Part shown: positions 6,317-27,772 of the stretch, in pieces | Numbering within the stretch: the first letter of the stretch is position 1 | How the letters are laid out: each line of letters begins with the position of its first letter | Assembly (NCBI GenBank): GCA_017539165.1 | Contig: JAFYHN010000055.1 | Coordinates: 36,710-100,709, forward strand | Reading direction: 5' to 3' | Source of the DNA: Eubacterium sp. | GTDB taxonomy: Bacteria; Bacillota; Clostridia; Lachnospirales; Lachnospiraceae | Length of the DNA stretch: 64,000 bases | Translations under genes and position numbers: made by a program | Notes under the pieces: model-generated | The model's database searches: none | Told to the model about the DNA's origin: nothing | The model's input: only the letters and a program-made list of their open reading frames with translations

Positions 6317-7354
6317 CTATACAACACTCATAAGTGAATCAATAATCTTTTTGTGTTTCCACTCAAGCTGAATACGGTCTAACAATCCAAACGAATTCCA
6401 TTCAAATGTATTATATTGATTATTATCCCATATTATACAAGTTATATTTCGCTTTCTACATTCATCAACATAAAATTTTATATATTCAGCTCTATCGTTT
6501 TCATTATCTTTGTCAATAGTTCCGAATTCACCTATAACTATAGGACGTTTCTTTTTAGCTGCCGCATTACTTAAAGAATTCAATACGTTTATGAGATCTT
6601 CTTTTTCTTCTTTCGTTCCCCATACATTTGTTTCATCTGGAACCATACAGAAAAAATATGGATGATAAGCATGAATGGATATAATTATATGCTCATCATC
6701 ATTCGGAATCTCCAGATCATTTACAGCTATATCACTTGCTTTCGCTCCATATACCGGAATAATAATTGTCCTATCTGCATTATTACTGCCTGTTTTTCTT
6801 ATTGTTTCTACTGCAGCTTTATTTAATATATTTATTATTTCCCTGGCTTCTTTAGTTCCTTCATTCCACTCAAACTCCGTTCCGATCAACCTGACTTCAT
6901 TCATTGTCTCAAAAATCAAATGATAATCATAATCCTTAAAATATTCTGATACCTGTTTCCATATGGATTCAAGAATAGCTATTCTTTCATCCAAATTATC
7001 TATAACCGGAATAAGCCAATCATCCTCATGATGAGCATCAATTATCACATACAGCCCCTCTTCATAAACATAATCTACTACTTCTTTTACTCTTTTCAAC
7101 CACTCAGGATCTATCTGATAATTGTTATTTGAATCTATTTTTTTCCACCATGTTACAGGAACTCTGATAGTATTAAACCCAGCTTCTTTTACCTTTAAAA
7201 TCATCTCTTTTGTCGTGACTGGATTGCCCCAATACTCCTCAAACTCTTTTATTGTTGCAGTATCTTTGTTTTCTGGGGCTGTAGCATCCAGACTATTCCC
7301 TAAATTCCAGCCAACCTTCATATCTCTTATAGTTTCAAATATGTCATTGTTCAT
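6317..7354 (-). CDS. Cytosolic glycoside hydrolase family 5 (endoglucanase-like)
   Basis: A 345-residue TIM-barrel glycosidase: MKVGWNLGNSLDA near the start, FNTIRVPVTW on strand 2, the acid/base Glu153 in FETMNE and the nucleophile Glu276 in IGEFGT. This fits GH5 enzymes that cleave beta-1,4-glucans or related beta-glycosides with retention. There is no signal peptide, unlike secreted cellulases, so it should act inside the cell. It is the last gene of the biosynthetic run, 41 bases after the DinB-like gene. In that position it could remove a sugar from a pathway intermediate, or simply be a metabolic gene caught at the operon end. Family call is firm, substrate unknown. Confidence 0.85.
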   Translation of the reverse strand: MNNDIFETIRDMKVGWNLGNSLDATAPENKDTATIKEFEEYWGNPVTTKEMILKVKEAGFNTIRVPVTWWKKIDSNNNYQIDPEWLKRVKEVVDYVYEEGLYVIIDAHHEDDWLIPVIDNLDERIAILESIWKQVSEYFKDYDYHLIFETMNEVRLIGTEFEWNEGTKEAREIINILNKAAVETIRKTGSNNADRTIIIPVYGAKASDIAVNDLEIPNDDEHIIISIHAYHPYFFCMVPDETNVWGTKEEKEDLINVLNSLSNAAAKKKRPIVIGEFGTIDKDNENDRAEYIKFYVDECRKRNITCIIWDNNQYNTFEWNSFGLLDRIQLEWKHKKIIDSLMSVV

Positions 7355-7395
7355 TAAATATCCACCTTTTTCAGAATAATCTAAATGATAATCCT

Positions 7396-8109
7396 TCAGT
7401 CAATAATCGATAAATAATCTATGCAGGCAGGCAAATGCATCATATGATGACATGTCATTGGGGTTAATATCATCCCACCTCTCGTTAATCTTCCCCAGAA
7501 TACAAGCAACCAAACCGAACGAAAATCCGTAGTAACTCCACCCACTTCAAGTATCTTCATAACCCAATCTTCTGGCACCATGGATTTAATCTCATCTAAA
7601 GTCAGTTTCTCTATGATAGCACGGGTATTCTTACCAACTGCGATCATATATTCATGCAAAGCATCTACATTTATCTTTTGTCCGAATTCCCGTATCTCTT
7701 CAGGCTCTAATGCATTTCCTGTATCAGTAATAATTGCTCCGATCTTATTCTGCCATTCCTCATCAAAGATCTGCTCCTGATCAGCCATTAATATATTACT
7801 GACTAGATCTTCAATACGATATGCATGCCAGAACTGCCAACACAAAGGAACCATATCTGTCCCCGCATAATGAAGATCTGTATCCCATATTTGTCTCGGA
7901 ACCATATCGTTTTGATTCCCTTTTAACATGTAATCCAAAACATAATCAGCAACCGTTTTTTCGGAACCTCCAGATACCTCACAAGGATGAACCATAGCAT
8001 GAACCTCTAATGTAAGTTCCTTTATCTTTTCCAGATTTTCTCCAGATAATGCTGTTTTTAATTCTTCGTATTTATTTTCAAATACAGAATACAATTGTTT
8101 CTTGATCAT
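7396..8109 (-). CDS. DinB-like four-helix protein
   Basis: 237 residues, mostly helical. The C-terminus TCHHMMHLPACIDYL and internal His residues (HAMVH, FWHAYRIEDL) resemble the metal-binding triad of the DinB/YfiT superfamily, whose members include thiol-dependent transferases and resistance proteins. No secretion signal. Gaps of 62 and 41 bases to its neighbours suggest co-transcription. A role in detoxification, self-protection or thiol chemistry is possible but not shown; it could be an unrelated passenger. Confidence 0.55.
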   Translation of the reverse strand: MIKKQLYSVFENKYEELKTALSGENLEKIKELTLEVHAMVHPCEVSGGSEKTVADYVLDYMLKGNQNDMVPRQIWDTDLHYAGTDMVPLCWQFWHAYRIEDLVSNILMADQEQIFDEEWQNKIGAIITDTGNALEPEEIREFGQKINVDALHEYMIAVGKNTRAIIEKLTLDEIKSMVPEDWVMKILEVGGVTTDFRSVWLLVFWGRLTRGGMILTPMTCHHMMHLPACIDYLSIID

Positions 8110-8171
8110 TTTTATTATCCCTATTGATTATATGCTATACTTAAAATATCAAAATTTTTTTCAACTCATAT

Positions 8172-9161
8172 TCAATTAAATTTGAATATAGTAATATTAT
8201 CAAGTTCTTCTAATTCTTCTCGAAATTTATCCCAAACATACATCTCTTTATCAAAAAGTTCCTGCACCCTATCATTTATAATTTTAATTTTCTGATCTAA
8301 GTTAGTCTGAACATATAACATATTTACTTTATATCGAATCATCAGCCAATCATTTGCCAATTCTTCCGTATATCCAATTATTCTTTCAGAATTTTCTCCT
8401 TTTATAATTCCTCGATTTCGTAATTCTTTAAAAAGCATGTTATTTGCCTGTAGCCTCTGAACAATCCTTCCTAAGTGAACGCTATTTAAATCTTCATAAG
8501 CATGTTTTTTATACTCTATTTCTTCCATTTTCCAATAATAACTCTTCTTAACTTCTTTGAGATTATTTAATCTTTCAAATGTATTTTCTAATAACATGTC
8601 CCTTGTTATATCTTGTATTTTTACATCTAGATTGATTTCACACCATTTAGTATTGATTCCACCTTCCATTCCTTTTTTTACTGATGTCAGAAAACTGTCT
8701 GAATCAATTGTAAATATTCCATATGTTTTATCCATATTTACATCAAAAACATAAAACAAATCTTCATCTTTATCATACTTCTGAATTAATGTTGAATGAT
8801 ACCAATGATCTCTACCATGGCATAAATTTTCTTTAATCCAATAATATAAATCAACCCCTACAAAAACGTATTTTCTTTCATCAAGAAGGCGTTTTATCTC
8901 CTTCATGAATTGCTCATCATTTTCATATTTTACGTCGACTTTATTGGCAAACATCTCCCCAACAATATCCCATCTTGTGAACGTTTCTAGGATTGTATGT
9001 TCTCCTGAAGATGTTTCAACCAATCTATTACGATAATAATAATCATTATTTAATGCTATATTTCTATACTTTCTATCAATAGTTTGTAAAATAGATAAAT
9101 ATAAATTTCCTTTACAATCAAACCATATATCGTCATATGCTTGAACTTTTGTTATATCCAT
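8172..9161 (-). CDS. BtrH-like acyl-carrier-protein-dependent acyltransferase (papain/C39-like fold)
   Basis: 329 residues. The N-terminus has Asp-Cys-Lys-Gly-Asn (DIWFDCKGNLYLSIL), then FVGVDLYYW, then WYHSTLIQKYD and LFYVFDVN. This Cys/His/Asp order is that of BtrH_N proteins and C39-like cysteine enzymes. In butirosin synthesis BtrH moves an aminoacyl chain from the carrier protein BtrI to the aminoglycoside. Here a carrier protein, its ligase and a glycosyltransferase are in the same operon, so transfer or release of the finished acyl group is the natural guess. Residues 190-329 are a helical C-terminal region of unknown role. AGGGGGAG precedes the start. Peptidase or cyclase activity cannot be excluded. 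Confidence 0.55.
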   Translation of the reverse strand: MDITKVQAYDDIWFDCKGNLYLSILQTIDRKYRNIALNNDYYYRNRLVETSSGEHTILETFTRWDIVGEMFANKVDVKYENDEQFMKEIKRLLDERKYVFVGVDLYYWIKENLCHGRDHWYHSTLIQKYDKDEDLFYVFDVNMDKTYGIFTIDSDSFLTSVKKGMEGGINTKWCEINLDVKIQDITRDMLLENTFERLNNLKEVKKSYYWKMEEIEYKKHAYEDLNSVHLGRIVQRLQANNMLFKELRNRGIIKGENSERIIGYTEELANDWLMIRYKVNMLYVQTNLDQKIKIINDRVQELFDKEMYVWDKFREELEELDNITIFKFN

Positions 9162-9179
9162 TTGGCTCCCCCTATATAT

Positions 9180-10154
9180 TTATGCCATCAAAACCTTTAA
9201 GATATTGTCCTTTAATAATTCTTTCTGTTCTTTAAGAACTCTGTAAAAATCATTTGCTAATTCCAAACTAATCATATTATCCCATTCCATTTTCATTAGC
9301 TGTACCTCAAGAGTCGGATATTTCGAACAAAAATATTGAAAATTCTTATACATATCACTGTTTTCGACCTTACTTCTTGGATGCTCTTGATGATAGTTTT
9401 TGGCATCAGAATCAAAATGAAAAACGAAGCCCTGCAAAAATAATTGATAAGAGAAATCTATATCCTCAATACCATATCCTTTGTAGTTTTCATCATATTC
9501 AAGAGCTTTATTACACAAAGTTCTGTCAAATGCCATATTTCCACCAAATGCCCTACTCCAACCTAAATAGAATCCATTTAATTCTTCTCCATATCTATCA
9601 ACCATATCAACTAAACGACTTTCCGTATAATCGGAAAGAAAGTATTTATTTATTACTTCGTCATAATTATCTCTTATATCTTGAGCTGTAAACATTTGTT
9701 TCTCAGTCAGTTCCAACAATTCAGGATACAATGTATATATTTTAAACTCATCTATAAATTTGTACTTTACATCACGCATGAAAAAAGATAATATCAAACA
9801 CTCCTTACCAACATTTACACATTTTTCACCCGAATCTAATTTCTTTTTATGACTATATACAAAATCTTTACAAGGTATTCTATCATCATCTGTTATAATA
9901 ATATAATCCCCTTTAGCAAGCTCCAAAGTAGCTTTTCTAACCTTTGAAATTCCTATTTTTTCATATTTGGCATAACAAATATTTAAATCGTTCTTATAGC
10001 TATCTATTATTTCTTTTGTATTATCAGTACTTCCATCATCAATTATAACTATTTCAAAGTCTTTATATGATTGTTGTTGATATCCGGCTAACGTTAAATC
10101 TAAATACTTTGCTTTATTATGTGTTGTCATAACAACTGAAATCTTTTTTTCCAT
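9180..10154 (-). CDS. Family 2 glycosyltransferase with galactosyltransferase-type C-terminal region
   Basis: 324 residues with the GT-A signature: KISVVMTTHNKAKYL, IIDDGSTDNT and the metal-binding acidic triplet in YIIITDDDRIP. The C-terminal half has FGGNMAFDR and GYGIEDIDFSYQL, as in the Glyco_transf_7C region where the ED pair supplies the catalytic base. It would transfer a nucleotide-activated sugar. Eighteen bases from the BtrH-like gene and ten from the ligase gene, it is clearly in the operon; the acceptor may be the pathway product. No transmembrane segment. Confidence 0.85.
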   Translation of the reverse strand: MEKKISVVMTTHNKAKYLDLTLAGYQQQSYKDFEIVIIDDGSTDNTKEIIDSYKNDLNICYAKYEKIGISKVRKATLELAKGDYIIITDDDRIPCKDFVYSHKKKLDSGEKCVNVGKECLILSFFMRDVKYKFIDEFKIYTLYPELLELTEKQMFTAQDIRDNYDEVINKYFLSDYTESRLVDMVDRYGEELNGFYLGWSRAFGGNMAFDRTLCNKALEYDENYKGYGIEDIDFSYQLFLQGFVFHFDSDAKNYHQEHPRSKVENSDMYKNFQYFCSKYPTLEVQLMKMEWDNMISLELANDFYRVLKEQKELLKDNILKVLMA

Positions 10155-10163
10155 ACCTTCTCC

Positions 10164-11285
10164 TTATTTTCCTATATAGTCTCTCACTTGTTCTGGCCAA
10201 TTTTTAGTACACAAGCCATATTGATGGATAAACGCAATAATACAGCGTTCAATACCAAACCCAATACATCCTGATTCCGTATATTGGTTTCCTTCCTTTG
10301 AAAAATGAAATCGATTGGCAAATGTACTCCCATGCAAATTGAACGATGCACACGCAATTGTCTCTTCTGGACTACTTGATAAACGCAATTCATATTTCAC
10401 TTTAAATTTCTTTTGAATCTTTCGATAACTTTGTAGGGCTGGCAGAACAAACGGATCACTTGCTATCTCCACTTTAAACTTTAATCCAATATTTTTAAGC
10501 TTCTCAATTACTCTTTTTAATAACTCTTCTCTTACCTTATACACATATTCTTTATCACCTATGAAAACAATCTCTCGAACGTTATAATCCCTTAATCTAT
10601 GAAGTTCATCCCAATTAAGTCTTCCCTCATTCCGAAAAACATTTTGTCTAAAAGAGAAAATACTGTCTTCTTTTAATACTTGTCCTCTTAATTCTTTATA
10701 GAGTGAAAAACATGCAGATGGAGATAACGCAAATTTAGCCTCACTTAAATATGGTTTTAAATTTCTTTCTTCTGCTGCCTTCTCTATCTTCTCAAAATTA
10801 TTCATTGATTCCATAATATCCATGCATAGCATGGGATGTTGAGGCGAATTAATTAAATATCCAGTATCTATCAAAGTATCCATTTCTATACTCGTCGGGT
10901 ACTTTTTTAATATCACTGGCATATCATCTAATATAGAAACAAATAGTTGATCAAAAAACTCAAAAAGTTTAATTCCTGTTTGATCTAAAACTATACTTCC
11001 ATCATAATACTTCTTTACTATATCCCCCTGTAGTACTTCATCATCTGTCCAATATCTATCTTGTTGTTCAGTAGAATAATAAATCTCATCGTCCGTTTTC
11101 TCTTTTCTTTTTTGAAACTCTATAATTGATTTATTTAGTTCCTCTTTTTCAACTTCATCATCGCAAAGTAATTTTATTTTTCTACCTACAACTTCATATG
11201 TTATTATTTTATCCGATATAAAACAGATACTTCTTCTAATGTCATCATCTATATCACAATTCATATCAAATTGTACAACCCTCAT
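10164..11285 (-). CDS. Seryl-tRNA-synthetase-like amino acid:[carrier protein] ligase
   Basis: Class II aminoacyl-tRNA-synthetase catalytic core without a tRNA-binding arm. Motif 2-like FRQNVFRNEG (about 212-221) and motif 3 GFGIERCIIAFI (about 342-353) are visible. Cys192 in LSPSACFSLY and Cys312 in EETIACASFNLHG, with a Glu in VREIVFIG (238), match the zinc ligands described for the homologues of atypical SerRS that load glycine or alanine on a small carrier protein. It should activate an amino acid with ATP and attach it to the phosphopantetheine of the carrier protein at 19661-19912, replacing an NRPS adenylation domain. It has a longer N-terminus (about 130 residues) than the minimal enzymes. 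AAGGAG precedes the start. Confidence 0.78.
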   Translation of the reverse strand: MRVVQFDMNCDIDDDIRRSICFISDKIITYEVVGRKIKLLCDDEVEKEELNKSIIEFQKRKEKTDDEIYYSTEQQDRYWTDDEVLQGDIVKKYYDGSIVLDQTGIKLFEFFDQLFVSILDDMPVILKKYPTSIEMDTLIDTGYLINSPQHPMLCMDIMESMNNFEKIEKAAEERNLKPYLSEAKFALSPSACFSLYKELRGQVLKEDSIFSFRQNVFRNEGRLNWDELHRLRDYNVREIVFIGDKEYVYKVREELLKRVIEKLKNIGLKFKVEIASDPFVLPALQSYRKIQKKFKVKYELRLSSSPEETIACASFNLHGSTFANRFHFSKEGNQYTESGCIGFGIERCIIAFIHQYGLCTKNWPEQVRDYIGK

Positions 11286-11315: not shown

Positions 11316-12245
11316 TTATATAAAAATGTCTGATGCTTTTAAAAATATCGATACATCAGCTCTATCATGAATTGGTGCATTCTTATCAGGATTAATAGAA
11401 ATAACTTTTTTACAATTAACTATACCTACCAAATGTTGGATCATCCCAGAAATACCAATAGCGATATAGCAATTACAAGAAATACTTTTCCCACTTTGTC
11501 CTACTTGCCGGGAATAAGGAATCACACCCGATTCAACCAATGGCCGGGAACACACAATCGGAATCGATTGTTTATTAGCATACTCCATTATTTTGGTTCT
11601 ATCTCTTTCACCTACACCTCTACCTATTCCTATAACCACCCCACTCATATCATATGATTCTGTATAATACTCATTTCTAAATACGACATCATTCAATTCT
11701 TCAGAAACATTTATATAATTAATATCAGCAATTCTTTTTCTTATTTGGGGAACAATATCTGTCGGTGCCTGTATACTTGATATTTGAATCTTTGATTTAC
11801 ATACAATCTTTGCCAGTAAATTATTATATGTAGTAGCTCTCTTATAAAATATGTCACCATCTAAATTCTCTAGCGATAGAACATCTGCTGTTACTCCCGC
11901 ATTAAATTTTCCAGATAACCAGGCACATATAGATCTTCCAATAATACTTGACGGTGTAAAAATATAATCACACACTTGATCACTTAAAAATCCATATACC
12001 AACTCACAATATCTATAATTGGATAACTTTTCATTATTACGCATTTTCATGACAAAAATGTTATCACATACATTTTGTAGTTCTTCATTACATAACTCAA
12101 ACACATTTTCTGTAATCAAAACATTTACTACATCAGAAATACCACATACCGTATTTCTCACATACAAAATTGTGTAGATAAATGGGGCAAAATTATATTC
12201 ATTTTTGTCATAACTATCGCAAATCACATATATGCTCTTTGACAT
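11316..12245 (-). CDS. etfA: Electron transfer flavoprotein alpha subunit
   Basis: 309 residues. The C-terminal FAD domain is clear: IGIGRGVGERD, CSRPLVESGVIP, RQVGQSGKSISC, IAIGISGMIQHL and ISINPDKNAPIHDRAD. The N-terminal domain is divergent. With the beta subunit 18 bases upstream and the acyl-CoA dehydrogenase before that, this forms a dedicated electron route that accepts electrons from the dehydrogenase flavin. Having its own ETF inside a biosynthetic operon suggests that desaturation of a carrier-bound acyl group is a key step. Divergence from housekeeping EtfA suggests specialisation. Confidence 0.88.
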   Translation of the reverse strand: MSKSIYVICDSYDKNEYNFAPFIYTILYVRNTVCGISDVVNVLITENVFELCNEELQNVCDNIFVMKMRNNEKLSNYRYCELVYGFLSDQVCDYIFTPSSIIGRSICAWLSGKFNAGVTADVLSLENLDGDIFYKRATTYNNLLAKIVCKSKIQISSIQAPTDIVPQIRKRIADINYINVSEELNDVVFRNEYYTESYDMSGVVIGIGRGVGERDRTKIMEYANKQSIPIVCSRPLVESGVIPYSRQVGQSGKSISCNCYIAIGISGMIQHLVGIVNCKKVISINPDKNAPIHDRADVSIFLKASDIFI

Positions 12246-12263: not shown

Positions 12264-12974
12264 TCAATAAATATTTATGTTTTCACTCAATACCTTTCGT
12301 GCCATATCAACATCAAATACTTCTTGTCGTTCTTTATGTCTTGATTGTATTCTATCTGCCTGAACTACCTGCGAAAAAACATTAATCTTTTCGTTTTTTT
12401 CAAATCTAATCTCTTCAGCGTTAATAATATGAATATCCGGCATATTTTCTTTGACATTAAACATGTTGGGCATACCTAAAAAAACAAGATCATCCGATAA
12501 TATATTTGAACATGTAATCACACAAGGCGATTTCATATTTATTACTTCATTAAAATAATCTAAACGCTGAACACATGATAAAGATTCTCCAACAGATATA
12601 CTAACCACATTTGATGCGAACGGAATATTTAATATTGAAGCAATCGATACTGGCACATGTGCCGTTTCTCCAAATCTCGATTTGTAATTTCCTATAACAA
12701 TGTCATATTTATATTTCATTAAAAATCTACTTATAATTGTTGCGGTCAAAAATGTATCTGCTCCAGCAAATTTTTCATCACTTAACAGATAGAAATTTCG
12801 AATAGGATAATCACTGCATCTTTCAATTCTCTTAATTGCTTCATTTCTGTCCATAGTCAAACAGTCTATATTTACATTCTCATAACTTTGTCTTATCGCA
12901 TTTGCAATAATTAAAGGATTTAATTCGTCCTCAATATAATCATCACTTAGTCTTAACAACACTAATACATTCAT
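12264..12974 (-). CDS. etfB: Electron transfer flavoprotein beta subunit
   Basis: 236 residues beginning MNVLVLLRLSDD. GADTFLTATIISRFL and YDIVIGNYKSRFGETAHVPVSIASIL match the AMP/FAD-binding face of EtfB. It forms the ETF heterodimer with the next gene and accepts electrons from the upstream acyl-CoA dehydrogenase, 6 bases away. The C-terminal arm, which docks into dehydrogenases in the family, is shorter and divergent, consistent with a dedicated partner. Confidence 0.85.
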   Translation of the reverse strand: MNVLVLLRLSDDYIEDELNPLIIANAIRQSYENVNIDCLTMDRNEAIKRIERCSDYPIRNFYLLSDEKFAGADTFLTATIISRFLMKYKYDIVIGNYKSRFGETAHVPVSIASILNIPFASNVVSISVGESLSCVQRLDYFNEVINMKSPCVITCSNILSDDLVFLGMPNMFNVKENMPDIHIINAEEIRFEKNEKINVFSQVVQADRIQSRHKERQEVFDVDMARKVLSENINIY

Positions 12975-12979: not shown

Positions 12980-14107
12980 TTATCCTTTTACCCCGATCAA
13001 CTTCGCAATATTATATAATTGCATTTCACTGGTACCTGAATAAATTTTGGCTCCTAAACTATCTCTAACTTCTTGTTCTATTCCAGATTCTTTACAATAG
13101 CCATATGCTCCATATATCTGCATCGCATCAAGGCACAACTGAGCATAACTTTCTCCAACATAATATTTGTATACAGAACTCTCTAAGAAAGTTATTTTTC
13201 CACTTTCCTTTATCGATATTATCTTTTCTAAATACGCCTCTCCCAACTCAATAGCAACTTTCATTTTAGCTATTTTTTCAGAAATCATCTGATACTCACC
13301 AATTGATTTTCCAAACTGCTTTCTTTGATTCGCATATTCTATGCAATCATTCATAATCCTATTCATTTTCCCAAGATGCGTAGAAAAACTGATACATTTT
13401 TCCCAATCAAACGCCATATTCCCAACTAAGCTGCCCATTCCGATTGTTCCAATCACTCTATTTCGAGGAACAACACAATTATTGAAAGTTATCTCACTCA
13501 TCATACAGGACTCTAGCCCCATCTTATGAATAGTCTTACCTATTTTCACTCCTTTATCATCACGCTTTACAAGTATAGCTGTATATCTGTTTTGTCCCAT
13601 CTCAGCATTTTTAGCAACTACTACTATTAAATCCGCCACTGACCCATTTGAGATATACATTTTTGAACCATTAATAACAATCTTATCTTCCTCCACCTTG
13701 CAACTTGTGCCCATGTTATATGCATCAGATCCAGAATTTGCTTCAGTAATTGCATATGCTCCCACATATTTTCCTTGAATTATACCAGATCCAAATTCCT
13801 CTTTAATTTTTTTAGATGCCATTTTCGGAAATATGCCTAAATACAAAATCAGACTATTACATATCGAAAAAACGAATCCGTTGTCATTAAAATAATAACC
13901 AATCCATTTTAACAATTTCATTATATCTCCTATAGATTCAGCCATACCGCCCATTTCTTTAGGAAGCAAATTAGCTATAATTCCAAATTCCCCACATTTT
14001 TTCCATGCTTCCTTTGAAAACTCATTTCTAGGTAACTTGTTTACATATTTCTCAGAAAAAGCTTCTATCCTTTTTTTGATAATTTCATCCTTTTCAGCTA
14101 TTTTCAT
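12980..14107 (-). CDS. Acyl-CoA dehydrogenase family flavoprotein with IVD/PltE-type catalytic Glu
   Basis: Start 14107 (MKIAEKDEI) has GGAG inside the end of the preceding gene; an ATG at 14122 is possible. Family motifs: YAITEANSGSDA (FAD/substrate), IVINGSKMYISNG, RKQFGKSIGEYQ, QIYGAYGYCKE and KIYSGTSEMQL. In medium-chain enzymes the catalytic Glu sits in IYEGT; here that position is Ser (about residue 357). A Glu is instead present in FDWEKC (about 236), which aligns with the base of isovaleryl-CoA dehydrogenase (LDLER) and of prolyl-carrier-protein oxidases such as PltE. That supports oxidation of a branched or aminoacyl thioester, probably on the operon's carrier protein, with electrons going to EtfAB. 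Residue equivalences are from my own alignment by eye. Confidence 0.85.
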   Translation of the reverse strand: MKIAEKDEIIKKRIEAFSEKYVNKLPRNEFSKEAWKKCGEFGIIANLLPKEMGGMAESIGDIMKLLKWIGYYFNDNGFVFSICNSLILYLGIFPKMASKKIKEEFGSGIIQGKYVGAYAITEANSGSDAYNMGTSCKVEEDKIVINGSKMYISNGSVADLIVVVAKNAEMGQNRYTAILVKRDDKGVKIGKTIHKMGLESCMMSEITFNNCVVPRNRVIGTIGMGSLVGNMAFDWEKCISFSTHLGKMNRIMNDCIEYANQRKQFGKSIGEYQMISEKIAKMKVAIELGEAYLEKIISIKESGKITFLESSVYKYYVGESYAQLCLDAMQIYGAYGYCKESGIEQEVRDSLGAKIYSGTSEMQLYNIAKLIGVKG

Positions 14108-14108
14108 T

Positions 14109-19638: not shown

Positions 19639-19660
19639 TTTCAAATCTCCATACAATTTA

Positions 19661-19924: not shown

Positions 19925-20635
19925 TTACTTAATCGCTAATATCCCTTCAAAACACATACTTTTAAAAAATTTATATATTTTTTTAAAACCAGCCTTTTTA
20001 AGTAAATCTACATTTTCCAGACTGGTATTAGGGACTAATACTCCTTTAATTGCTAATGATTTAGCCATTACCTCTTCATAACTAAAACCTTTAGATATTT
20101 TAAATTCACTATATACCATGTTTGAGATATCTTGGAACAAACCAGACTGTTCTTGTACTTTTTCAAACATTATAAACGCCCCACCATAATTCAAACTGTT
20201 ATATACTTTATTGACTATACTTTGCCTTTGACTGGGATTTATAAACTGTAATGTATAATAAGATGTAAACAAATCTGTCTGTTCAAAACTATAAGTTAAC
20301 AAATCTGCCTCTTCAAATTTTACATTTGCAAATTCCTTACTTTGCTCACTAGCTTTCTCTACCATTTCTGGAACAATATCCAATCCACGCCATTGTATTT
20401 TTTTTCCTTTATGATAGGCAGCTAACTCTCTTAAAAGCTCACCAGTTGATGCTCCTAAATCATAGCAAATACTTCCATTTCGACAAAAATAATCACTTAG
20501 ATAACAAATGATCCTATGACCTTCCGTATAAGACATAATTGAATTAGATATGTGATCGTGAAAATGATCAACTAATTGCTTTCCATGGAAATCCCAGGAA
20601 GCATGATCTTTTTGAATTCCATCTCCAACTAACAT
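19925..20635 (-). CDS. CmoA-like SAM-dependent methyltransferase
   Basis: 236 residues. WDFHGKQLVDHFHDHISNSI matches the CmoA N-terminus; ICYDLGASTGELLREL is motif I; TLQFINPSQRQSIVNKVY and LNYGGAFIMFEK align well with E. coli CmoA, which makes carboxy-SAM. In my alignment from memory, the CmoA Arg199 that holds the carboxylate corresponds to Ser in VMAKSLAIKG, so this copy more likely uses ordinary SAM, or acts as a cyclase like C10Q, which works after a HemN-like enzyme in CC-1065 cyclopropanation. The start overlaps the upstream radical SAM stop by one base. It sits between HemN-like enzymes and the carrier protein. Confidence 0.82.
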   Translation of the reverse strand: MLVGDGIQKDHASWDFHGKQLVDHFHDHISNSIMSYTEGHRIICYLSDYFCRNGSICYDLGASTGELLRELAAYHKGKKIQWRGLDIVPEMVEKASEQSKEFANVKFEEADLLTYSFEQTDLFTSYYTLQFINPSQRQSIVNKVYNSLNYGGAFIMFEKVQEQSGLFQDISNMVYSEFKISKGFSYEEVMAKSLAIKGVLVPNTSLENVDLLKKAGFKKIYKFFKSMCFEGILAIK

Positions 20636-21984
20636 TATTCTGATTCCTCTCCTTTTACATTACTCGTCTTTTGCGAACGAATCATATTTAATAAATTTAT
20701 AAAATCGCGTTCTTTTTGCTCCTTGCTATAAAAAAGTCTGGATATATTTCCCGCAAATATCTTTCCGGTATTGGTAAGCTTCAGTTTTGACCCTTCCCAA
20801 CGAACATATTCGCATTCCAAAAGGTTTTTTATTGTTTTTTCAACATTCTCACCACCGATAATTTCAGACTTATCTATCCACGTCATAGAAGGAAAAAAAA
20901 CCATTTTACGAAGGTCATCATCTTCATCACTTGAAACATGACCGTACTCTACAGCATTTTTTGTTATACCAATCATATTAATGTACTGATCTATTTGATT
21001 AGCATTTCTAAAACTATGTTTTTCCACATAACTACGTGCAGATGGTCCTATACCGAGCATAGGATATCCTCTTAAATATCTTTTATATCCAATAAACGGT
21101 TCATTTTTTAATGAATACAAATTTGAAGACACCTGACTATATTCTGTATTTTCAAAAAACTGTGATACTTGAGAATACATTTCAATTTCTCTAGCACGAC
21201 TGGGTTTGATTTCATAATTGCCTTCATAAATCTTTTTAAAAAAGGAAGTGTCAGGATAAATATCCATCCCATGAATATCGATATACTGAGGTTTTAACTT
21301 TATTGCGGTATTTAAATCTTCAAATAACAATTCCTTAGATTGATTGGGCATGTTGTACATCATATCAAACGAATAATCAGTAATCGGCGAATTCTTTAAT
21401 CGCTCAACCAAGTCATATATCTCCTCGTTACGAACAGATATATTCATTGTTTTCTTTAATTTTGAATCAAACGTTTGTATACCAAAACTGATCCTATCAA
21501 CCTTATTCTCAATTAAACCATCTATATATTCTGGTTTGAGTAAATTTTTAACTGTACCTTCCATGGAAATACCACATAATTCACTCAAATCAAACAAATT
21601 AGAAATAGATTTAAATATTTTATTCCAATATTTTATTGGTAATGATGAAGGATCCCCACCACCAATACATATTGTACTTACCTTCCGTTCTTGAAAGTAT
21701 TTTTTTTCAGAAAAATACTCTAATTCCTCAATGATAGAATTAACAAATTTATCCAGTTTATCCTCAGAAAAATCACACATTGCTTCCTTATAATATGGAC
21801 AAAATTCACACAATTCGCTACATATCGGAATTTGAATAAATATACGAAATGGTAACTTGTTAGAGGATTCTTCATCCAAAAAATCCAACCATCTCTCTGA
21901 ATCTTTTATTAAATCTCTTTCTTCACATATAACAGGATATATCCATGTTTCTGTCATTCTCTTATCAAAGATTATTTTTTTCAC
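20635..21984 (-). CDS. HemN-like (class C) radical SAM enzyme, copy 2
   Basis: 449 residues from a GTG start that overlaps the preceding stop by 4 bp; the N-terminal length matches the two paralogues. Cluster ligands at about 55/59/62 in CSELCEFCPYY; GGGDPSSLP follows. YSFDMMYNMPNQ corresponds to HSIDLMYNIPDQ and FSFDMIYNFPDQ in the paralogues. It lacks the shared C-terminal NPYNQD phrase. Probably acts on the same carrier-bound substrate at another position or in another step. Very AT-rich. Confidence 0.84.
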   Translation of the reverse strand: MKKIIFDKRMTETWIYPVICEERDLIKDSERWLDFLDEESSNKLPFRIFIQIPICSELCEFCPYYKEAMCDFSEDKLDKFVNSIIEELEYFSEKKYFQERKVSTICIGGGDPSSLPIKYWNKIFKSISNLFDLSELCGISMEGTVKNLLKPEYIDGLIENKVDRISFGIQTFDSKLKKTMNISVRNEEIYDLVERLKNSPITDYSFDMMYNMPNQSKELLFEDLNTAIKLKPQYIDIHGMDIYPDTSFFKKIYEGNYEIKPSRAREIEMYSQVSQFFENTEYSQVSSNLYSLKNEPFIGYKRYLRGYPMLGIGPSARSYVEKHSFRNANQIDQYINMIGITKNAVEYGHVSSDEDDDLRKMVFFPSMTWIDKSEIIGGENVEKTIKNLLECEYVRWEGSKLKLTNTGKIFAGNISRLFYSKEQKERDFINLLNMIRSQKTSNVKGEESE

Positions 21985-23339
21985 TTTCCCGTTCCCATAT
22001 TATCTTGATTATAAGGATTTGTTTTATCTATCATTGACTTAACTACCGTTTTTAAATTATATTCCTTTTGTTTTTCACTAAAGAAATATGAAGCAACGTT
22101 TCCACAATATATTTTTCCACGATGAGTCAATTTCAAAACATCATTTTCCCACTCTACATAACCATTTTTATGTAATATTTCTATTTTATCTAAGATTTTT
22201 TTGTCTTGAGGAATGTATTCCTTCTCTATATATCCAAGCTGCGGGAAAAATACCATTACTCTTTCCATATCCTCTTCTTGAGTTGCTATATTTCCAGCTT
22301 CAATTGGGAATTTATATTCTGAAATTCTCTTAATATACTCTTTCACCGAACAACAATCTCTATAGCTTCTTCTTTCAATATACGTTCTTGCAGAAGGACC
22401 TATTCCTAAAACGGGATTTGATCTAGACTGATTAATAAACGTTTTGAACGGTTTTTCTCTCTTTTTAGAGAAGTAAATTGAGCCTAAATGCTTATACCCT
22501 TTCTTCTCATAACCCTCAATATACTTTTCATACATCAAAACTTCCATCTCATTCGTCGGTTTAGTGGAAAAGTATTTTCCTTCATTAATTACCTGTTCAA
22601 ATTTAGTATTGGGATATACATTGAGATTATGAATATCAATATACTCTGCGTCCATCTTTATACTTTTCTCAATATCCACATCAATGTCTTCTAATGTTTG
22701 ATCAGGGAAATTGTAAATCATATCAAATGAAAAGCAGTCTAGTCCTTTATTATGTAATAAGTCGGAAAGATTATATATTTCCTCTTCGGACGGTTTTAAA
22801 AATACTTTTTTTCTAATATTCTCATTAAATGTTTGAACTCCGAAACTTAGATGTTTTCCATCTATACTTTTAAACCAATCTAACTTTTCTTCATTTGAAA
22901 GACTCCAAACATGTCCCTCTAATGACACAACAAAATCCTCAGTAATCGTAAAGTTCTTCACAACTGTATCTAATAATTCTTGAAGGTATTTAACATCAAT
23001 TATTGCTCCGTCTCCGCCTCCGAAATATAAAGAGGTTACCTTGTTTTTCTTAAAAAACTCTGTTTCAGAATACATTTTCAATTCAGTCTTTATAGCCTCA
23101 ATCAATGGCTTAATATCATCATCACTTAAGGATGAATATCTCACCTTATAATAAGGACAAAAAAAACAAAATGAATTACAATACGGAATATGAATATAGA
23201 TATTTACAGGCAGATCATTCGATGGTGCTTGATTTAAATAACTCATAAAATCCGGAAGCATAATCTCATCGCTATAATACTTACTTATTCTTGGATATAC
23301 CCAAACCTCTGTTTGACGTTCATTAAACAATTGCTCCAC
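21981..23339 (-). CDS. HemN-like (class C) radical SAM enzyme, copy 3
   Basis: 452 residues from a GTG start (GAGG upstream). Ligands Cys54, Cys58, Cys61 in CNSFCFFCPYY; the next motif is GGGDGAIID, diverged even from the GGGDP of the other two. FGVQTFNENIRKKV and GIGPSARTY are conserved across the three. HemN_C domain at the end, terminating near NPYNQDNMG as in copy 1. First of the three in transcription order, 25 bases after cysteine synthase. Product cannot be predicted; methylation, methylene transfer or cyclopropanation are known for this class. Confidence 0.84.
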   Translation of the reverse strand: MEQLFNERQTEVWVYPRISKYYSDEIMLPDFMSYLNQAPSNDLPVNIYIHIPYCNSFCFFCPYYKVRYSSLSDDDIKPLIEAIKTELKMYSETEFFKKNKVTSLYFGGGDGAIIDVKYLQELLDTVVKNFTITEDFVVSLEGHVWSLSNEEKLDWFKSIDGKHLSFGVQTFNENIRKKVFLKPSEEEIYNLSDLLHNKGLDCFSFDMIYNFPDQTLEDIDVDIEKSIKMDAEYIDIHNLNVYPNTKFEQVINEGKYFSTKPTNEMEVLMYEKYIEGYEKKGYKHLGSIYFSKKREKPFKTFINQSRSNPVLGIGPSARTYIERRSYRDCCSVKEYIKRISEYKFPIEAGNIATQEEDMERVMVFFPQLGYIEKEYIPQDKKILDKIEILHKNGYVEWENDVLKLTHRGKIYCGNVASYFFSEKQKEYNLKTVVKSMIDKTNPYNQDNMGTGK

Positions 23340-23364
23340 TTACTCTTTATCCTCGCTTTCATTA

Positions 23365-24315
23365 TTAATTTACAAAAGAATTTTTAATATTAGGATTATA
23401 TAGTTCCGTATTTAAATATCTTTCTCCCGTATCCGGAAGAAAAGCCACTATTTTCTTATCTTTATTCTCTGGTCTTTTTGCAAGTTCCATAGCGACCCAC
23501 GTTGCTGCTCCTGATGATATCCCAGCAAAAATACCTTGTTTTTTAGCCAACGCTCTCGCTGTATCTAAGGCATCTTGATCCTCAACTTTAATTACTTCGT
23601 CTAGCAAATCCCTATCTAGAATATCTGGAATAAACCCGGCTCCAATACCTTGAATTTTATGAGGACCTTTTTTTTCGCCAGATAAAACCGCAGATCCAGC
23701 TGGTTCTACACCAATAATTTTTATATCTGGATTTTTTTTCTTTAATAAATGACCAGTTCCAGTAATCGTTCCTCCGGTTCCTATTCCTGCCACAAAAAAA
23801 TCAATTTGCCCTTCGGTATCACTCCAAATTTCTTCTCCTGTAGTTAATTCATGGGCTAAAGGATTATTAATATTTGTTATTTGAGAAGGAATAAATGCCT
23901 TGGGTAGTTCACTAGCAATTTTATCTGCTTCCAAAAAAGCTTTCTTCATTCCAAATACTCCTGGTGTTAATACCACCGTAGCACCCATAGCTTTAATATG
24001 ATTAATCTTATCAATACTCATCGTATCTGGAATTACTAATATAATTTTTAACCCTAATGCCGATGCCACATGAGCTAATCCAATTCCTGTGTTACCACTT
24101 GTCCCCTCTACAATTGTTGTATCTTTGTCAATAAGCCCCTCTTCCATAGCTTTTTTTATCATATTATATGCGGGTCTATCTTTAGCACTTCCTCCAGGAT
24201 TAAAACATTCTAATTTTGCTATCACTTCTGCATATAATTTTGAATTATCTACACTTGATAATCGTACTAATGGTGTATTTCCAATCAAATCTATAACAGA
24301 ATCATATATTCTCAT
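23365..24315 (-). CDS. Cysteine synthase / O-acetylserine sulfhydrylase family PLP enzyme
   Basis: 316 residues, normal length. LIGNTPLVRLS, the PLP lysine in GGSAKDRPA, EGTSGNTGIGLA and GIGTGGTITGTG are all present, and SGGAA-like ISSGAATW follows. By family it replaces the beta-acetoxy group of O-acetylserine with sulfide. In a biosynthetic operon such enzymes also make other beta-substituted alanines, which could then be loaded on the carrier protein. No marked motif change argues for or against ordinary CysK activity. Second-copy status cannot be judged here. Confidence 0.88.
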   Translation of the reverse strand: MRIYDSVIDLIGNTPLVRLSSVDNSKLYAEVIAKLECFNPGGSAKDRPAYNMIKKAMEEGLIDKDTTIVEGTSGNTGIGLAHVASALGLKIILVIPDTMSIDKINHIKAMGATVVLTPGVFGMKKAFLEADKIASELPKAFIPSQITNINNPLAHELTTGEEIWSDTEGQIDFFVAGIGTGGTITGTGHLLKKKNPDIKIIGVEPAGSAVLSGEKKGPHKIQGIGAGFIPDILDRDLLDEVIKVEDQDALDTARALAKKQGIFAGISSGAATWVAMELAKRPENKDKKIVAFLPDTGERYLNTELYNPNIKNSFVN

Positions 24316-24361
24316 AATCCCTCTCCTATCTATTCACATTTTATTAAATGCATTATTCAAT

Positions 24362-25162
24362 TTATATTGACTTTAGCCATGTCACCGATTTTTCTATATA
24401 CTCATACATGTCTTCTGCCCCATAATGTTCGATTGAGTATATTCCCTCGTATCCGATTGTCTTCAAAACATCAATTATTTCTTGTATATGAATAGATCCA
24501 GATCCTACAGCACACGGATACAGTTTTCTTCCACTTACAGAAATAGTTGGTGCTTCATTTTTATTCTGAAGCATTGATCTATCCTTTAAATGGACATGAT
24601 GTACTTTATTCTTTAGCTTTTGGATATATTCCATTTCGTCTTCATCCCAAAATGCAAAATTTCCGGTATCAAAAACACATTTCAATGATTCACATTGTTC
24701 AAGAAATAAGATAACCCCTTCACCTGATAGAGGTGACATAGAATTATCAAAAGTTTCAATTTCCACCGTCACATTTTTATCCTGAGCATATTTACACAAT
24801 ATATTTATTCCCTGAATCATTTTATGTATCTGATTATCTTTTATATCATCACTCAACAACCCTGGCAGGATTAAAACCTCTTTTACTTCTAAGTCATTAG
24901 ATATATCTATTATCTGATATTCCTTGTCATAATCCCCTTCTTTATTAAGATTACACTCATGACATATACATCCAATCTTCAGTCCGGAATCATCCAGGAT
25001 ATTCATCGTTTGAGAATAATCGCTCAGTAGGAAACGAGAATTGAGATCAACATATTCCACACCCATGGTTCGAACAGTTTTTGCAGCCTCTTTAATCGAG
25101 ATGTTTTTCTGTTCAGCCATAGACACTATATGATCATAAAAAATAGAGATTTTATTTTTCAT
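24362..25162 (-). CDS. Sugar phosphate isomerase/epimerase-like TIM barrel
   Basis: 266 residues. Metal-site features of the xylose-isomerase-like family are seen: VEIETFDNSMSP, CVFDTGNFAFW, HHVHLKDR and SIEHYGAED. Overlaps the preceding radical SAM gene by 11 bp. Family members isomerise or dehydrate sugars and inositols (IolE, hydroxypyruvate isomerase). It may provide a sugar or C3 unit for the pathway; substrate unknown. Confidence 0.8.
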   Translation of the reverse strand: MKNKISIFYDHIVSMAEQKNISIKEAAKTVRTMGVEYVDLNSRFLLSDYSQTMNILDDSGLKIGCICHECNLNKEGDYDKEYQIIDISNDLEVKEVLILPGLLSDDIKDNQIHKMIQGINILCKYAQDKNVTVEIETFDNSMSPLSGEGVILFLEQCESLKCVFDTGNFAFWDEDEMEYIQKLKNKVHHVHLKDRSMLQNKNEAPTISVSGRKLYPCAVGSGSIHIQEIIDVLKTIGYEGIYSIEHYGAEDMYEYIEKSVTWLKSI

Positions 25163-26528
25163 GTTCTCCGCTCTCCCACATCTCTCTAACGCAAGAACTT
25201 AACTTATCCAAATCATAGGCAAATGGTTGCATTTTTCTAATAGTCTTTTTATTATCACGCACGATCTCATAATTGTAATGATATGCACCTTCATAAGATA
25301 TTCTCATCGTATAAAGAATACTGTACAACCACACCAGATACTTTCTTTCGTCGCTATTTAATATACTTGGGTAATCTACAGTTGTTGTATTTCCAAATGC
25401 AGTAAATAATTCAGGAGTAAGAAGTTTTTCATCAATGTCGAATTTGCAATCCTCGTACTCATTAAATATTGCATATGAACTATCAAGGTAATCTGCAAAC
25501 TTATATGTATTCTCTACTTTTTCCCATGTCTCTTCAGGAAATCCGACGATATAGAAGGCCATAGTAATGATTCCAAGTCCATTGGCGTACGCTATGATTT
25601 CCTTCATTCTTTCCGGTTTTCCTTTTACACTGTTGTATGTTTTCAGTATTTCTGCATCACCTGATTCAACACCAAAACAGATAAGGAACACACCTGCTTT
25701 ATGTAACATCGTAATTAATTCTTCATCAAGACTTGAAAGTCGAGTCTCACATATCAACTGTACCTTTATATTCTGTTCTATTATCTTTTTGCAGAATTCC
25801 ATAATTCTAGCTTTGTCCGAAGTGAAATACTGATCTCTGAACTGAATAACTTCCGCTCCCAGCTCTACTAGCTTTTTAACGTCTTCGACCATTCGATCTA
25901 CATCTCTGAATTCAACCTTTTCATAATAGAGTTTGTACGGACAATATGAACATGCCATCGGGCATCCTCTGCTCGCCTGTAGAGTAAGTCTTACCCTTTT
26001 TTCATCATCTAGATATCTTTTATAATTCACCAATGTATAATCAGGAGTAGGCATATCATTTATGCCTAAATTCTCCGAATTCGGATTCAGGTAATGTAAA
26101 GCAAATTCATCAATTGGCTCTTCGATAACCTGATTGATCTCATCAACGTTTTCGTCTATCCATTTCTTGATTATCTTTGACGCATGCCCACCAATCTTTA
26201 TTTCTGCCTCTGGGATTAACATTTTTATTCTTTTGAGAAGTTCTATATCAGAACGAATTGTAGGAGCAGTCGTTTTGAGAATAATCATGTCATATTTTTT
26301 ACCCTCGAGCTTTTTTAACAACTCATCTGGAAGCATCTTATCTTCTAGCACTGCATCAATAAACTCAACTTCATAATCCGGATTTTCTTTGAAAATAGTA
26401 GCCGCTGTAAGTAATGTTAAATCCGGAAATACATCGCGAGTATTTAAGTGTTCCCCAAGCTCACCATGTGCATCACTATGTATGGTTATTCCGTAATATG
26501 CTCTTAAAAATAATACCTTTTTTATCAT
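25152..26528 (-). CDS. Class B-type radical SAM enzyme with N-terminal B12-binding-like domain
   Basis: Start 26528 (MIKKVLFLRA) is preferred because AAAGGA lies 6 bases upstream. Residues 1-150 are an alpha/beta domain like cobalamin-binding domains (GHASKIIKKWIDENVDEINQ at the switch region), without an obvious DxHxxG. Cluster ligands Cys189, Cys193, Cys196 in SRGCPMACSYCPYK. FGVESGDAEIL and IVGFPEETWEKV follow. First pathway enzyme after metK, 62 bases downstream of its stop. Codon usage is less AT-rich than the core genes downstream. Confidence 0.82.
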   Translation of the reverse strand: MIKKVLFLRAYYGITIHSDAHGELGEHLNTRDVFPDLTLLTAATIFKENPDYEVEFIDAVLEDKMLPDELLKKLEGKKYDMIILKTTAPTIRSDIELLKRIKMLIPEAEIKIGGHASKIIKKWIDENVDEINQVIEEPIDEFALHYLNPNSENLGINDMPTPDYTLVNYKRYLDDEKRVRLTLQASRGCPMACSYCPYKLYYEKVEFRDVDRMVEDVKKLVELGAEVIQFRDQYFTSDKARIMEFCKKIIEQNIKVQLICETRLSSLDEELITMLHKAGVFLICFGVESGDAEILKTYNSVKGKPERMKEIIAYANGLGIITMAFYIVGFPEETWEKVENTYKFADYLDSSYAIFNEYEDCKFDIDEKLLTPELFTAFGNTTTVDYPSILNSDERKYLVWLYSILYTMRISYEGAYHYNYEIVRDNKKTIRKMQPFAYDLDKLSSCVREMWESGEHEK

Positions 26529-26590
26529 CTTGCATCCTTTCCCACCTAACACATCTATGTTTGATTAGACATTGTCAAATTTATTACATC

Positions 26591-27772
26591 TTAGTTAATA
26601 TAATTCTTCAATGCCTCAACCTTATCCAGTCTTTCCCAAGGCAGGTCAATATCTACTCTTCCAAAATGTCCATATGCAGCAGTCTGCTTGTAGATAGGTC
26701 TTCTAAGATCAAGCATTTTTATTATTCCGGCAGGTCTGAGATCAAAGTTTTCATTTATAACGTCTGACAGAACGTTGTCATCTATCTTTCCGGTTCCGAA
26801 TGTATCTACCACGATTGATACTGGCTTTGCTACTCCTATCGCATATGCCAACTGGATCTCACACTTGTCTGCAAGCCCTGCTGCAACTATATTTTTAGCT
26901 GCATATCTTGCTGCATAGGCTGCAGATCTATCAACCTTTGTACAGTCTTTTCCTGAGAACGCTCCACCACCGTGTCTTCCATATCCACCATATGTATCTA
27001 CGATAATCTTTCTTCCTGTCAGTCCTGAATCACCATTAGGACCTCCGATAACAAAACGTCCTGTTGGATTGATAAAATACTTTGTATCCTCATCAACCAT
27101 GTCTTTAGGAAGAACTAGTTCAAAAACATATTTTTTTATATCTTCGTGAATCTGCTCCTGTGTAATCTTAGGATCATGCTGAGTTGATAAAACAACTGTA
27201 TCTATTCTTAGAGGCTTTCCGTCTTTTCCATATTCAATAGACACCTGGCTCTTTCCATCAGGTCTTAAGTAACTTAAGGTTCCGTTTTTTCTGACTTCAG
27301 AAAGTCTTCTTGTTAACTTGTGAGCAAGTGAAATCGGAAGTGGCATATATTCATCTGTTTCGTTTGAAGCATAACCGAATACCATCCCCTGATCACCGGC
27401 ACCTATGTCATCCGTTTCTTCCTCTTTTTCCTTTGCTTCCAAAGATTTATCTACGCCCATTGCAATATCTGCAGACTGTTCATCCAGTGCTACTATTACT
27501 CCGCATGTATCTGCATCAAATCCGTACTTTGCTCTGTCATATCCAATCTCTTTAATCGTGTCTCTAACAACCTTCTGAACATCTACATATCCTGTTGTTG
27601 TTATTTCCCCCATAACTAGTACAAGTCCTGTTGTTATACTGGTTTCACAAGCCACTCTGCTGTTCTTATCCTGCTTCATCAATTCGTCGAGAATAGCATC
27701 TGATATCTGATCGCAGATTTTGTCTGGATGTCCTTCCGTTACAGACTCTGATGTAAATATAGTTTTTCCCAT
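26591..27772 (-). CDS. metK: S-adenosylmethionine synthetase
   Basis: 393 residues, full length: [16 protein letters not shown] at the start, [34 protein letters not shown] and [16 protein letters not shown]. Makes SAM from ATP and methionine. AAAAGGAG precedes the start. No S-box riboswitch, often found before Firmicutes metK, is visible in the 200-bp leader; instead the LytTR-type box at 27852-27880 is there. As first gene of the operon it would supply SAM to five radical SAM enzymes and a methyltransferase. Composition is more like housekeeping genes than like the AT-rich core. Whether the genome has another copy cannot be seen. Confidence 0.97.

Follow-up and report, generated by a model that had tools for sequence, protein, structure and literature searches.

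The window analysed here is a 64,000-nucleotide stretch from the 3.2 Mb draft genome of a Eubacterium species (genome G000 of our set, contig C44, positions 36710-100709), and it carries a run of 21 open reading frames (ORFs), all on the minus strand and co-directional, extending from 27772 to 6317. Intergenic distances lie between –14 and +62 nt and the ORFs sum to 21,111 bases, overlaps counted twice, within an operon span of 21,456, which agrees with an initial annotation that had described a 21-gene run with short gaps or overlaps. In order of transcription, the genes encode the S-adenosylmethionine (SAM) synthetase MetK, a radical SAM enzyme (rSAM2), a TIM-barrel protein, the cysteine synthase CysK, HemN-like radical SAM proteins 3 and 2, a CmoA-like methyltransferase, a carrier protein, HemN-like protein 1, an ATP-binding cassette (ABC) ATPase, two ABC-2 permeases, a PhpK-like radical SAM enzyme (rSAM1), an acyl-CoA dehydrogenase-type protein (ACAD), the two subunits of an electron transfer flavoprotein (ETF; EtfB, then EtfA), an amino acid:[carrier protein] (aa:CP) ligase, a GT2 glycosyltransferase, a BtrH-like protein, a DinB-like protein and a GH5 glycoside hydrolase. 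These identities come from Pfam, NCBIfam and PDB sequence searches, with Pfam reporting at E 0.05. The Pfam and NCBIfam scans of the 21 genes gave no match to a condensation, adenylation or ketosynthase domain, consistent with the earlier claim that the operon lacks nonribosomal peptide synthetase (NRPS) and polyketide synthase (PKS) modules, and rules seeking such modules would miss an operon of this kind. It is a real, rare biosynthetic operon, and its core is common to two distant bacteria, the source organism and Paenibacillus sp. S150.

The ligase gene (10164..11285; this and all other operon genes lie on the minus strand) encodes a protein resembling seryl-tRNA synthetase (SerRS), with PDB matches to solved aa:CP ligases (3mey, the best, at 5.9e-26; 4h2w at 1.7e-25) and to two SerRS structures. 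It has a class II aminoacyl-tRNA synthetase core with FRNE and GIER, which we take to be the class II motifs, and C192, E238 and C340, presumably zinc ligands, are aligned with 3mey and invariant across the protein and four relatives (alignment of five sequences). It scores 131 bits to NF005479, under the curated cut-off of 357, and by its sequence is a divergent relative of aa:CP ligases, not an equivalog. In a ligase tree it falls in one clade with the S150 and Tissierellales ligases (support 100/99). To our knowledge, the biological role of aa:CP ligases is mostly unknown, and the operon gives them a concrete candidate pathway. The excerpted account of these ligases describes them as zinc-dependent aminoacyl-tRNA synthetase homologues that load Gly, Ala or Ser onto carrier proteins (PMC9437257). 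A discrete carrier protein is co-encoded with the ligase both in S150 and in the operon, where it is short (19661..19912) and has Ser39 in a DSL motif. Its PP-binding match is weak (E 0.013), as are its scores to the OlsHI-type acyl carrier protein (ACP; 35.4 bits of 130), AmcB (32.6 of 80) and DltC (23 of 68).

The ACAD (12980..14122) belongs to the aminoacyl-carrier-protein dehydrogenase group, its best structural match being AnaB (4irn, 6.6e-73). Its closest named relatives are AnaB, PigA and RedW, named as carrier-bound prolyl dehydrogenases or their kind, and it stays below the NCBIfam cut-offs for PigA (277.4 bits of 500) and RedW (239 of 650). The Trp-Glu pair of AnaB, which we take to be catalytic, is aligned and kept. 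An ACAD tree of nine rows has open forks and includes no characterised prolyl enzyme, and it does not settle the substrate. EtfB (12264..12974) and EtfA (11316..12245) were identified by family scans, and this pair would let the ACAD act without oxygen.

Five radical SAM enzymes are present, as the initial annotation had counted, and all five keep the CX3CX2C motif; its label "B12-type" for two of them stands on family similarity only. These two are rSAM1 (14109..15602, CX3CX2C at 214) and rSAM2 (25152..26552, CX3CX2C at 197), both of the PhpK/BchE/AprD4 group, which score 344.6 and 111 bits, respectively, to the PhpK P-methyltransferase family TIGR04479 and so do not reach its cut-off of 600. 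HemN-like protein 1 (HemN1; 18271..19656) has as its best solved relative NocN, a radical SAM methyltransferase (92.9 bits), barely ahead of HemN (87.7 bits). HemN2 (20635..21984, CX3CX2C at 55) and HemN3 (21981..23339, CX3CX2C at 54) score 176.5 and 164 bits to TIGR04107, with a cut-off of 400. In a HemN tree of 12 rows, which holds no characterised class C reference, HemN1-3 and the S150 HemN form one clade (97/96), and a protein from a cluster in G813, a genome of the same class, is sister to that clade (100/99), apart from the seven other HemN-like rows.

The remaining core genes encode CysK, a putative acyltransferase and an exporter. CysK, a cysteine synthase-type pyridoxal phosphate enzyme (23365..24315), scores 405 bits to TIGR01139, over the cut-off; the source genome has four CysK-type genes that score over 345 bits, this one included, and a fifth, weak match, and in a tree the operon CysK groups with the S150 CysK (96/97). 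The BtrH-like protein (8172..9161) is a putative cysteine acyltransferase with C16, H122 and D140, and we count it as core through an intermediate, a G813 protein (L082:2231-3211) that matches both it (1.7e-4) and the BtrH_N protein of S150 (1.5e-5). Across seven aligned sequences His122 is invariant, an acidic residue stands at Asp140 in all seven, and Cys16 is aligned in six, the seventh starting late. AziU3/Azi29 also appeared as weak matches to the BtrH profile at E about 0.09, amid unrelated kinases, and were not relied on. The exporter consists of a DrrA-type ABC ATPase (17261..18262; family scans) and two PF06182 permeases, permease 1 at 15640..16452 and permease 2 at 16479..17264. These searches bore out the SerRS-like ligase, lone carrier protein, ACAD with its own ETF, methyltransferase (19925), CysK (23365), glycosyltransferase (9180) and ABC-2 exporter (15640/16479/17261) of the initial annotation; its acyltransferase is the BtrH-like protein, linked to BtrH_N proteins via the intermediate.

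A reduced form of the operon lies on an island in Paenibacillus sp. S150. This island was found by scanning a species-genome collection with an alignment of three ligases, using two peptide patterns only, so that the yield stands as at least four loci. The ligase lies at the end of the S150 run, and the island holds direct BLAST homologues of 11 of the 21 operon genes, or 12 counting BtrH. Identities between operon and island are 46% for the ABC ATPase, 40% and 30% for permeases 1 and 2, 40% for HemN, 39-41% for rSAM1, 52% for CysK, 35% for the carrier protein, 43% for the ACAD, 28% for EtfB and 33% for EtfA. The single S150 HemN matches all three HemN-like proteins of the operon, HemN1 best. 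Upstream of the run are genes for a BtrH_N protein (PF14399, 1.4e-10) and for a protein of 203 residues that is assigned to no family; if the latter gene belongs, the island has 13 genes, 12 of which have an operon counterpart if BtrH is counted. Housekeeping genes border the island: further upstream are mutL, a methyltransferase-type gene, miaA, hfq and a gene for a penicillin-binding protein, and downstream of the island are genes for DUF402, DUF218 and AAA proteins; no NRPS/PKS domain matched in the scanned flanks. We define the core as the aa:CP ligase, carrier protein, ACAD, EtfA/B, CysK, one HemN-like enzyme, one PhpK-like radical SAM enzyme, BtrH and the ABC-2 exporter. Because the island was found via the ligase alone and holds 10 further operon homologues, the operon is more than a chance run of genes and looks like a real natural-product pathway. 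The S150 island would be a smaller version of that pathway.

In the S150 locus we found no counterpart for nine operon genes: MetK, rSAM2, the TIM barrel, HemN2, HemN3, the methyltransferase, GT2, DinB and GH5. These nine are putative members of the pathway. MetK (26591..27772), the first gene of the operon, has three Pfam domains and is a second copy (two PF00438 matches genome-wide). A radical SAM gene cluster in the Tissierellales metagenome-assembled genome G393 (L134 6838-8052, L026) has a MetK gene nearby whose product is 57% identical to the operon MetK. The methyltransferase (19925..20635) matches CmoA (4gek, 1.4e-21) and scores 125.6 bits to TIGR00740, below the cut-off of 193.3. Carboxy-SAM synthesis was considered as a possible activity of this enzyme, whose C-terminal stretch is unlike that of CmoA in the alignment with 4gek; the excerpt of PMC9821293, consulted for this enzyme, does not name CmoA and was set aside. 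The TIM barrel (24362..25162) is of xylose-isomerase type (PF01261, 7.5e-21) and the glycosyltransferase (9180..10154) matches PF00535 at 1.2e-23. The DinB-fold protein (7396..8109) is mycothiol-transferase-like (NF047843, 36.7 bits of 170; 8f5v, E 2.5e-5). The GH5 protein (6317..7354; PF00150, 1.5e-63; 6q1i, 1.5e-102) shows no signal peptide on inspection by eye and has two Glu residues that we take to be the catalytic pair. MetK, the TIM barrel, the DinB-like protein and GH5 are parts that the initial annotation had not listed.

The combination is rare. At E <= 1e-50 the ACAD has a match in one of 61 genomes of the genus, the source itself, and the other 60 have none (31 of the 61 are >= 90% complete and <= 5% contaminated). 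Ligase relatives occur at E <= 1e-8 in 7 of 392 genomes of the source order, source included, and at E <= 1e-20 in 50 of 394 genomes of S150's family, S150 included. Eleven ligase loci were read in that family, the Paenibacillaceae (one in S150 itself); seven have the same ABC triple, and in none did we find the set of HemN, CysK and rSAM1. Besides the S150 island, 19 other genomic ligase loci were read in stretches of 6.5 to 21 kb, and none shows a HemN, CysK or close rSAM1 homologue; these 19 are the 11 from Paenibacillaceae, L015 and L017, and six more. L018 is not counted, as its 6.5 kb contig is apparently identical to that of L009. Weak ACAD matches (19-25%) occur in ligase loci L053 and L057. 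In eight loci (L047, L049, L050, L051, L052, L053, L055 and L017) the ligase is accompanied by the three-gene ABC-2 exporter also seen in the operon, and frequently by a carrier-protein match too, and there looks to be a wider group of export-linked aminoacyl-carrier loci in Paenibacillaceae. An NTP_transf_5 protein adjoins the ligase in L049 and lies three genes away in L015. Viral contigs scanned for the ligase gave 14 pattern matches, none of them a relative.

An rSAM1 profile was searched at a cut of 1e-45 against 391 genomes of the source class and 100 genomes from the genus of S150, and at 1e-100 against 392 genomes from its order; the two source proteins gave E 6e-288 and 0 and all other matches 1.7e-109 or weaker. 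Twelve loci of rSAM1 relatives have no ligase homologue in the stretches read. In eight of them an ORF of NRPS/PKS size, judged by length only, lies beside the rSAM1 relative, and three have a carrier-protein match (L078, L081 and L082), with adenylation and carrier domains matched by Pfam in L081 and L082. L079 and L080 have neither an ORF of that size nor a carrier match, and have the ABC triple. G813 (L132 4565-17956, L082 2231-11116) encodes homologues of rSAM2 (40% identical), HemN1, rSAM1, the carrier protein and the BtrH-like protein, and its cluster also encodes a protein with adenylation and carrier domains and a weak condensation match. Plasmid records gave 49 matches for rSAM1 (none covering 80% of the query), 387 for HemN1 and 1595 for the ACAD; the full gene set was absent from three plasmid regions read (H51, H53 and H58), which are among the best 15 of these 49, 387 and 1595 matches. 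By record annotation, the ACAD adjoins the ligase in plasmid loci L019, L020, L022 and L100; in L019, L022 and L100 the ligase is accompanied by an ACP, an ACAD and a 3-hydroxyacyl dehydrogenase beside PKS/NRPS-type genes, and in L020 (Shinella) by an ACP, an ACAD, a DUF1839 protein and a GH2 protein. The Alkalihalophilus pseudofirmus plasmid locus (L019 11121-25101) is annotated with a zwittermicin-like extender-unit set and a BtrH_N protein adjoining the ligase. On a Streptomyces clavuligerus plasmid (L023 10061-12245), a remote ligase relative, a small hypothetical protein and a phosphopantetheinyl transferase are encoded in a row.

The operon has 31% G+C, against 40% in the window to its right and 34% in the stretch to its left. 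Terminator-like sites on the minus strand inside the operon (9638, 7864 and 25965) all lie within genes and none in gaps; 3' of GH5 there is a hairpin without a clear T run (z –2.15). An Rfam scan of window positions 1-34000 gave no match over threshold, and no phosphonate gene was recognised in the operon. Upstream of the operon (27979-33041), a gene for a DUF1854 protein is flanked by two ABC transporter genes. The DUF1854 gene is present in 10 of 31 genus genomes, source included; in four others read around it, two ABC genes adjoin it, the neighbours are otherwise unlike those in the window, and a search at E <= 1e-20 showed none of the operon genes in these surroundings. We read the operon as an accessory insertion that probably arrived by horizontal transfer. 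Further out (33363-37261) lie ThiC, a TMP-synthase-type gene and a further radical SAM protein, possibly ThiH.

A direct repeat resembling a LytTR box, TGTCGTTCACT-N9-TGTCGTTCACT, precedes MetK (27851..27881, minus strand), 32 nt ahead of a TATTAT, with a terminator-like hairpin directly upstream of it (27885..27920, minus strand). A second copy with 21 of 22 repeat positions lies at 4152..4182 on the plus strand, 27 and 32 nt ahead of two TATAAT boxes, so that a distance of 32 nt to a TATAAT-like box occurs at both sites. Downstream of the second copy, a 16-codon ORF (4270..4320, plus strand) with a good ribosome-binding site (GGAGG) encodes a peptide ending in NGWP, a candidate pheromone. 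Family scans identify the minus-strand neighbours as a LytTR response regulator (3250..3975), a GHKL histidine kinase (1952..3253) and, adjoining the peptide ORF, an ABC transporter with fused membrane and ATPase domains (4426..6075); no AgrB was found among the scanned neighbours of the 16-codon ORF. The next-best paired site in the window has 16 of 22 repeat positions, against 22 and 21 at these two; the exact pair occurred in none of 100 dinucleotide shuffles, and 20 mononucleotide shuffles, scanned on one strand, gave at most 17 of 22 positions. Peptide control of the operon appears likely because its repeat recurs once in the window, before the 16-codon ORF near a kinase and LytTR regulator. 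The LytTR protein would bind both repeats.

Taken together, the gene content suggests that the product of the operon is probably a small secreted metabolite, built from an amino acid that is bound through a thioester to the operon's own carrier protein. The ligase would adenylate the amino acid and load it onto the carrier protein, and the ACAD would then desaturate it, passing electrons to the ETF with no need for oxygen. While the substrate is still on the carrier, the HemN-like (class C) and PhpK-like enzymes would attach one-carbon units to its new sp2 centre or close by, using SAM from MetK; ring closure in the manner of C10Q may follow in this host, catalysed by the CmoA-like methyltransferase. 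The BtrH-like enzyme could hand the acyl group to an amine, possibly that of a glycoside made with GT2, the ABC-2 exporter would secrete the product, and the peptide-LytTR circuit would switch the operon on. We infer these steps and the circuit from family resemblance and gene order. If true, they would amount to a compact, oxygen-independent route to unusual amino acids on a carrier protein. A more specific version, which we put forward tentatively and hold to be possible but less likely than not, is a new class of pathway in which an ETF-coupled, anaerobe-compatible desaturase makes an alkene and HemN-like enzymes insert a SAM-derived methylene, followed by BtrH-type transfer and export under peptide quorum control; the products would be cyclopropane or homologated amino acids, with up to three HemN-like enzymes acting here and one in S150.

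Several observations weigh against a secreted metabolite built on the carrier protein. The pathway is known here from genes alone, 9 of the 21 operon genes have no S150 counterpart, and the two loci have only part of their gene order in common (the ABC triple, and ACAD-EtfB-EtfA-ligase). The BtrH-like protein has no Pfam match at E 0.05, neither rSAM1 nor rSAM2 matches a B12-binding family in Pfam at that threshold, and HemN1 scores nearly as well to HemN as it does to NocN. Half-sites of the repeat taken singly, with one mismatch allowed, number 5 against 2.2 expected, a count reached by 10 of 100 shuffles, and only the paired form is above chance. The substrate clues conflict, since aa:CP ligases load Gly, Ala or Ser in the excerpted account (PMC9437257) whereas the nearest named relatives of the ACAD take proline, and because these clues point to different substrates we leave the loaded amino acid unassigned. 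Finally, the ligase, ACAD, HemN-like, rSAM and carrier proteins are all under the NCBIfam cut-offs shown, and therefore substrate assignments do not transfer.

The absence of nine genes from S150 is also what one would expect if the run consisted of at least two adjacent units, with a genuine core of 12 genes and passengers unrelated to it such as MetK, GH5, the TIM barrel, GT2 and others, and GH5 does resemble a plain endoglucanase by sequence. We consider this arrangement unlikely: all gaps are <= 62 nt, the internal terminator-like sites lie in genes rather than in gaps, and MetK, a second copy, is directly behind the LytTR-type repeat. The same accessory genes could be read as parts of a lincosamide-like conjugate, in which a thiosugar, formed by GT2 and the DinB-fold thiol transferase with CysK-derived sulfur, would be attached to the amino acid on the carrier. 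The DinB/mycothiol-transferase-like protein, GT2, CysK and carrier protein are all in the operon, and in lincosamide synthetase, according to the abstract of PMC4351081, a carrier protein is combined with LmbV and LmbE, two proteins similar to mycothiol enzymes. However, the DinB match is weak (E 2.5e-5), the likeness to Lmb proteins is one of description only, and the S150 locus keeps CysK but yielded no homologue of GT2 or DinB, which leaves this explanation with a small share of our belief.

The two other explanations give the carrier protein another client. The ligase, carrier protein and ACAD might make a modified aminoacyl-ACP as an extender unit for an NRPS/PKS encoded elsewhere, like the aminomalonyl-ACP of zwittermicin, which follows the same ligase, ACP and ACAD logic in the excerpt of PMC6395733; plasmid loci L019, L022 and L100 are annotated with such a set beside PKS/NRPS-type genes. 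However, the 3-hydroxyacyl-CoA dehydrogenase of those loci was not matched in the operon, neither the operon nor the scanned S150 flanks gave an NRPS/PKS domain match (the rest of the genome was not searched), and an acyltransferase-like protein and an exporter are encoded in the operon itself. We hold extender supply to be improbable. Least probable is envelope modification, in which a lipid, teichoic acid or glycan would receive an acyl or aminoacyl group from the carrier, as with DltC or the ornithine-lipid ACP. GT2 and GH5 could act on a glycan and the carrier protein does score to the OlsHI-type ACP and DltC, but far under the cut-offs (35 of 130 and 23 of 68). No Dlt or Ols partner is among the matches of the 21 genes, the operon is strain-specific (ACAD in 1 of 61 genus genomes) and Dlt or Ols systems are not known to include radical SAM enzymes, a dehydrogenase or an ABC-2 exporter.

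A secreted metabolite assembled on a dedicated carrier protein, the reading we prefer, has several precedents in part. ZmaJ of the zwittermicin pathway is of the SerRS-like type, which fits the plasmid loci. In the excerpted description of zwittermicin aminomalonyl-ACP, a ligase puts Ser on a discrete ACP and an ACAD then acts (PMC6395733), so that the ZmaJ/ZmaH/ZmaI module and the operon have the same ligase, discrete ACP and ACAD logic. Unlike that module, the operon has no matched 3-hydroxyacyl-CoA dehydrogenase, acyltransferase domain or PKS among its 21 genes, its ligase is only 25-28% identical to the zwittermicin-like plasmid ligases of L019, L022 and L100, and it adds an ETF, CysK, radical SAM enzymes, a BtrH-like protein and an exporter. 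The AnaB/PigA/RedW systems offer the nearest named relatives of the ACAD, which keeps their Trp-Glu position and falls below their NCBIfam cut-offs; the operon differs from them in its dedicated ETF pair and in that no proline adenylation domain was matched in it. The Cys/His/Asp arrangement of the butirosin BtrH family (BtrH_N) aligns with residues of the product of gene 8172, which is remote and linked via the intermediate only.

For the radical SAM steps, one likeness is to nosiheptide, where the substrate of NosN is bound to NosJ, a discrete carrier protein, in the excerpted account (PMC5585349). NosI/NosJ/NosN/NosK and the operon would resemble each other in having a ligase, a discrete carrier, a class C radical SAM enzyme acting on the carrier and a separate release enzyme, but the ligase type and release enzyme differ and the nosiheptide substrate is an indolic acid. 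According to the excerpt of PMC6050322, SAM is the methylene donor of HemN-like class C enzymes, and in CC-1065 C10P acts together with C10Q to build a cyclopropane on an sp2 carbon of a pyrrole. The operon likewise pairs HemN-like radical SAM enzymes with a SAM methyltransferase; its methyltransferase is, however, CmoA-like and likened to C10Q by description only, no methyltransferase homologue was found in the S150 locus, and cyclopropanation in the operon is hypothetical. The operon works like known carrier-protein pathways, yet for each one compared a defining part is missing or not demonstrable. No publication on the gene combination was among the literature matches listed (titles and abstract openings; MIBiG was not searched), so the initial annotation's claim of an undescribed biosynthetic operon can stand for that combination only and not for its logic. 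Because the zwittermicin (PMC6395733) and nosiheptide (PMC5585349) excerpts already describe ligase, carrier and ACAD loading and carrier-bound class C chemistry, it is the joining of the two in one operon with CysK, BtrH-type and export genes that can count as undescribed.

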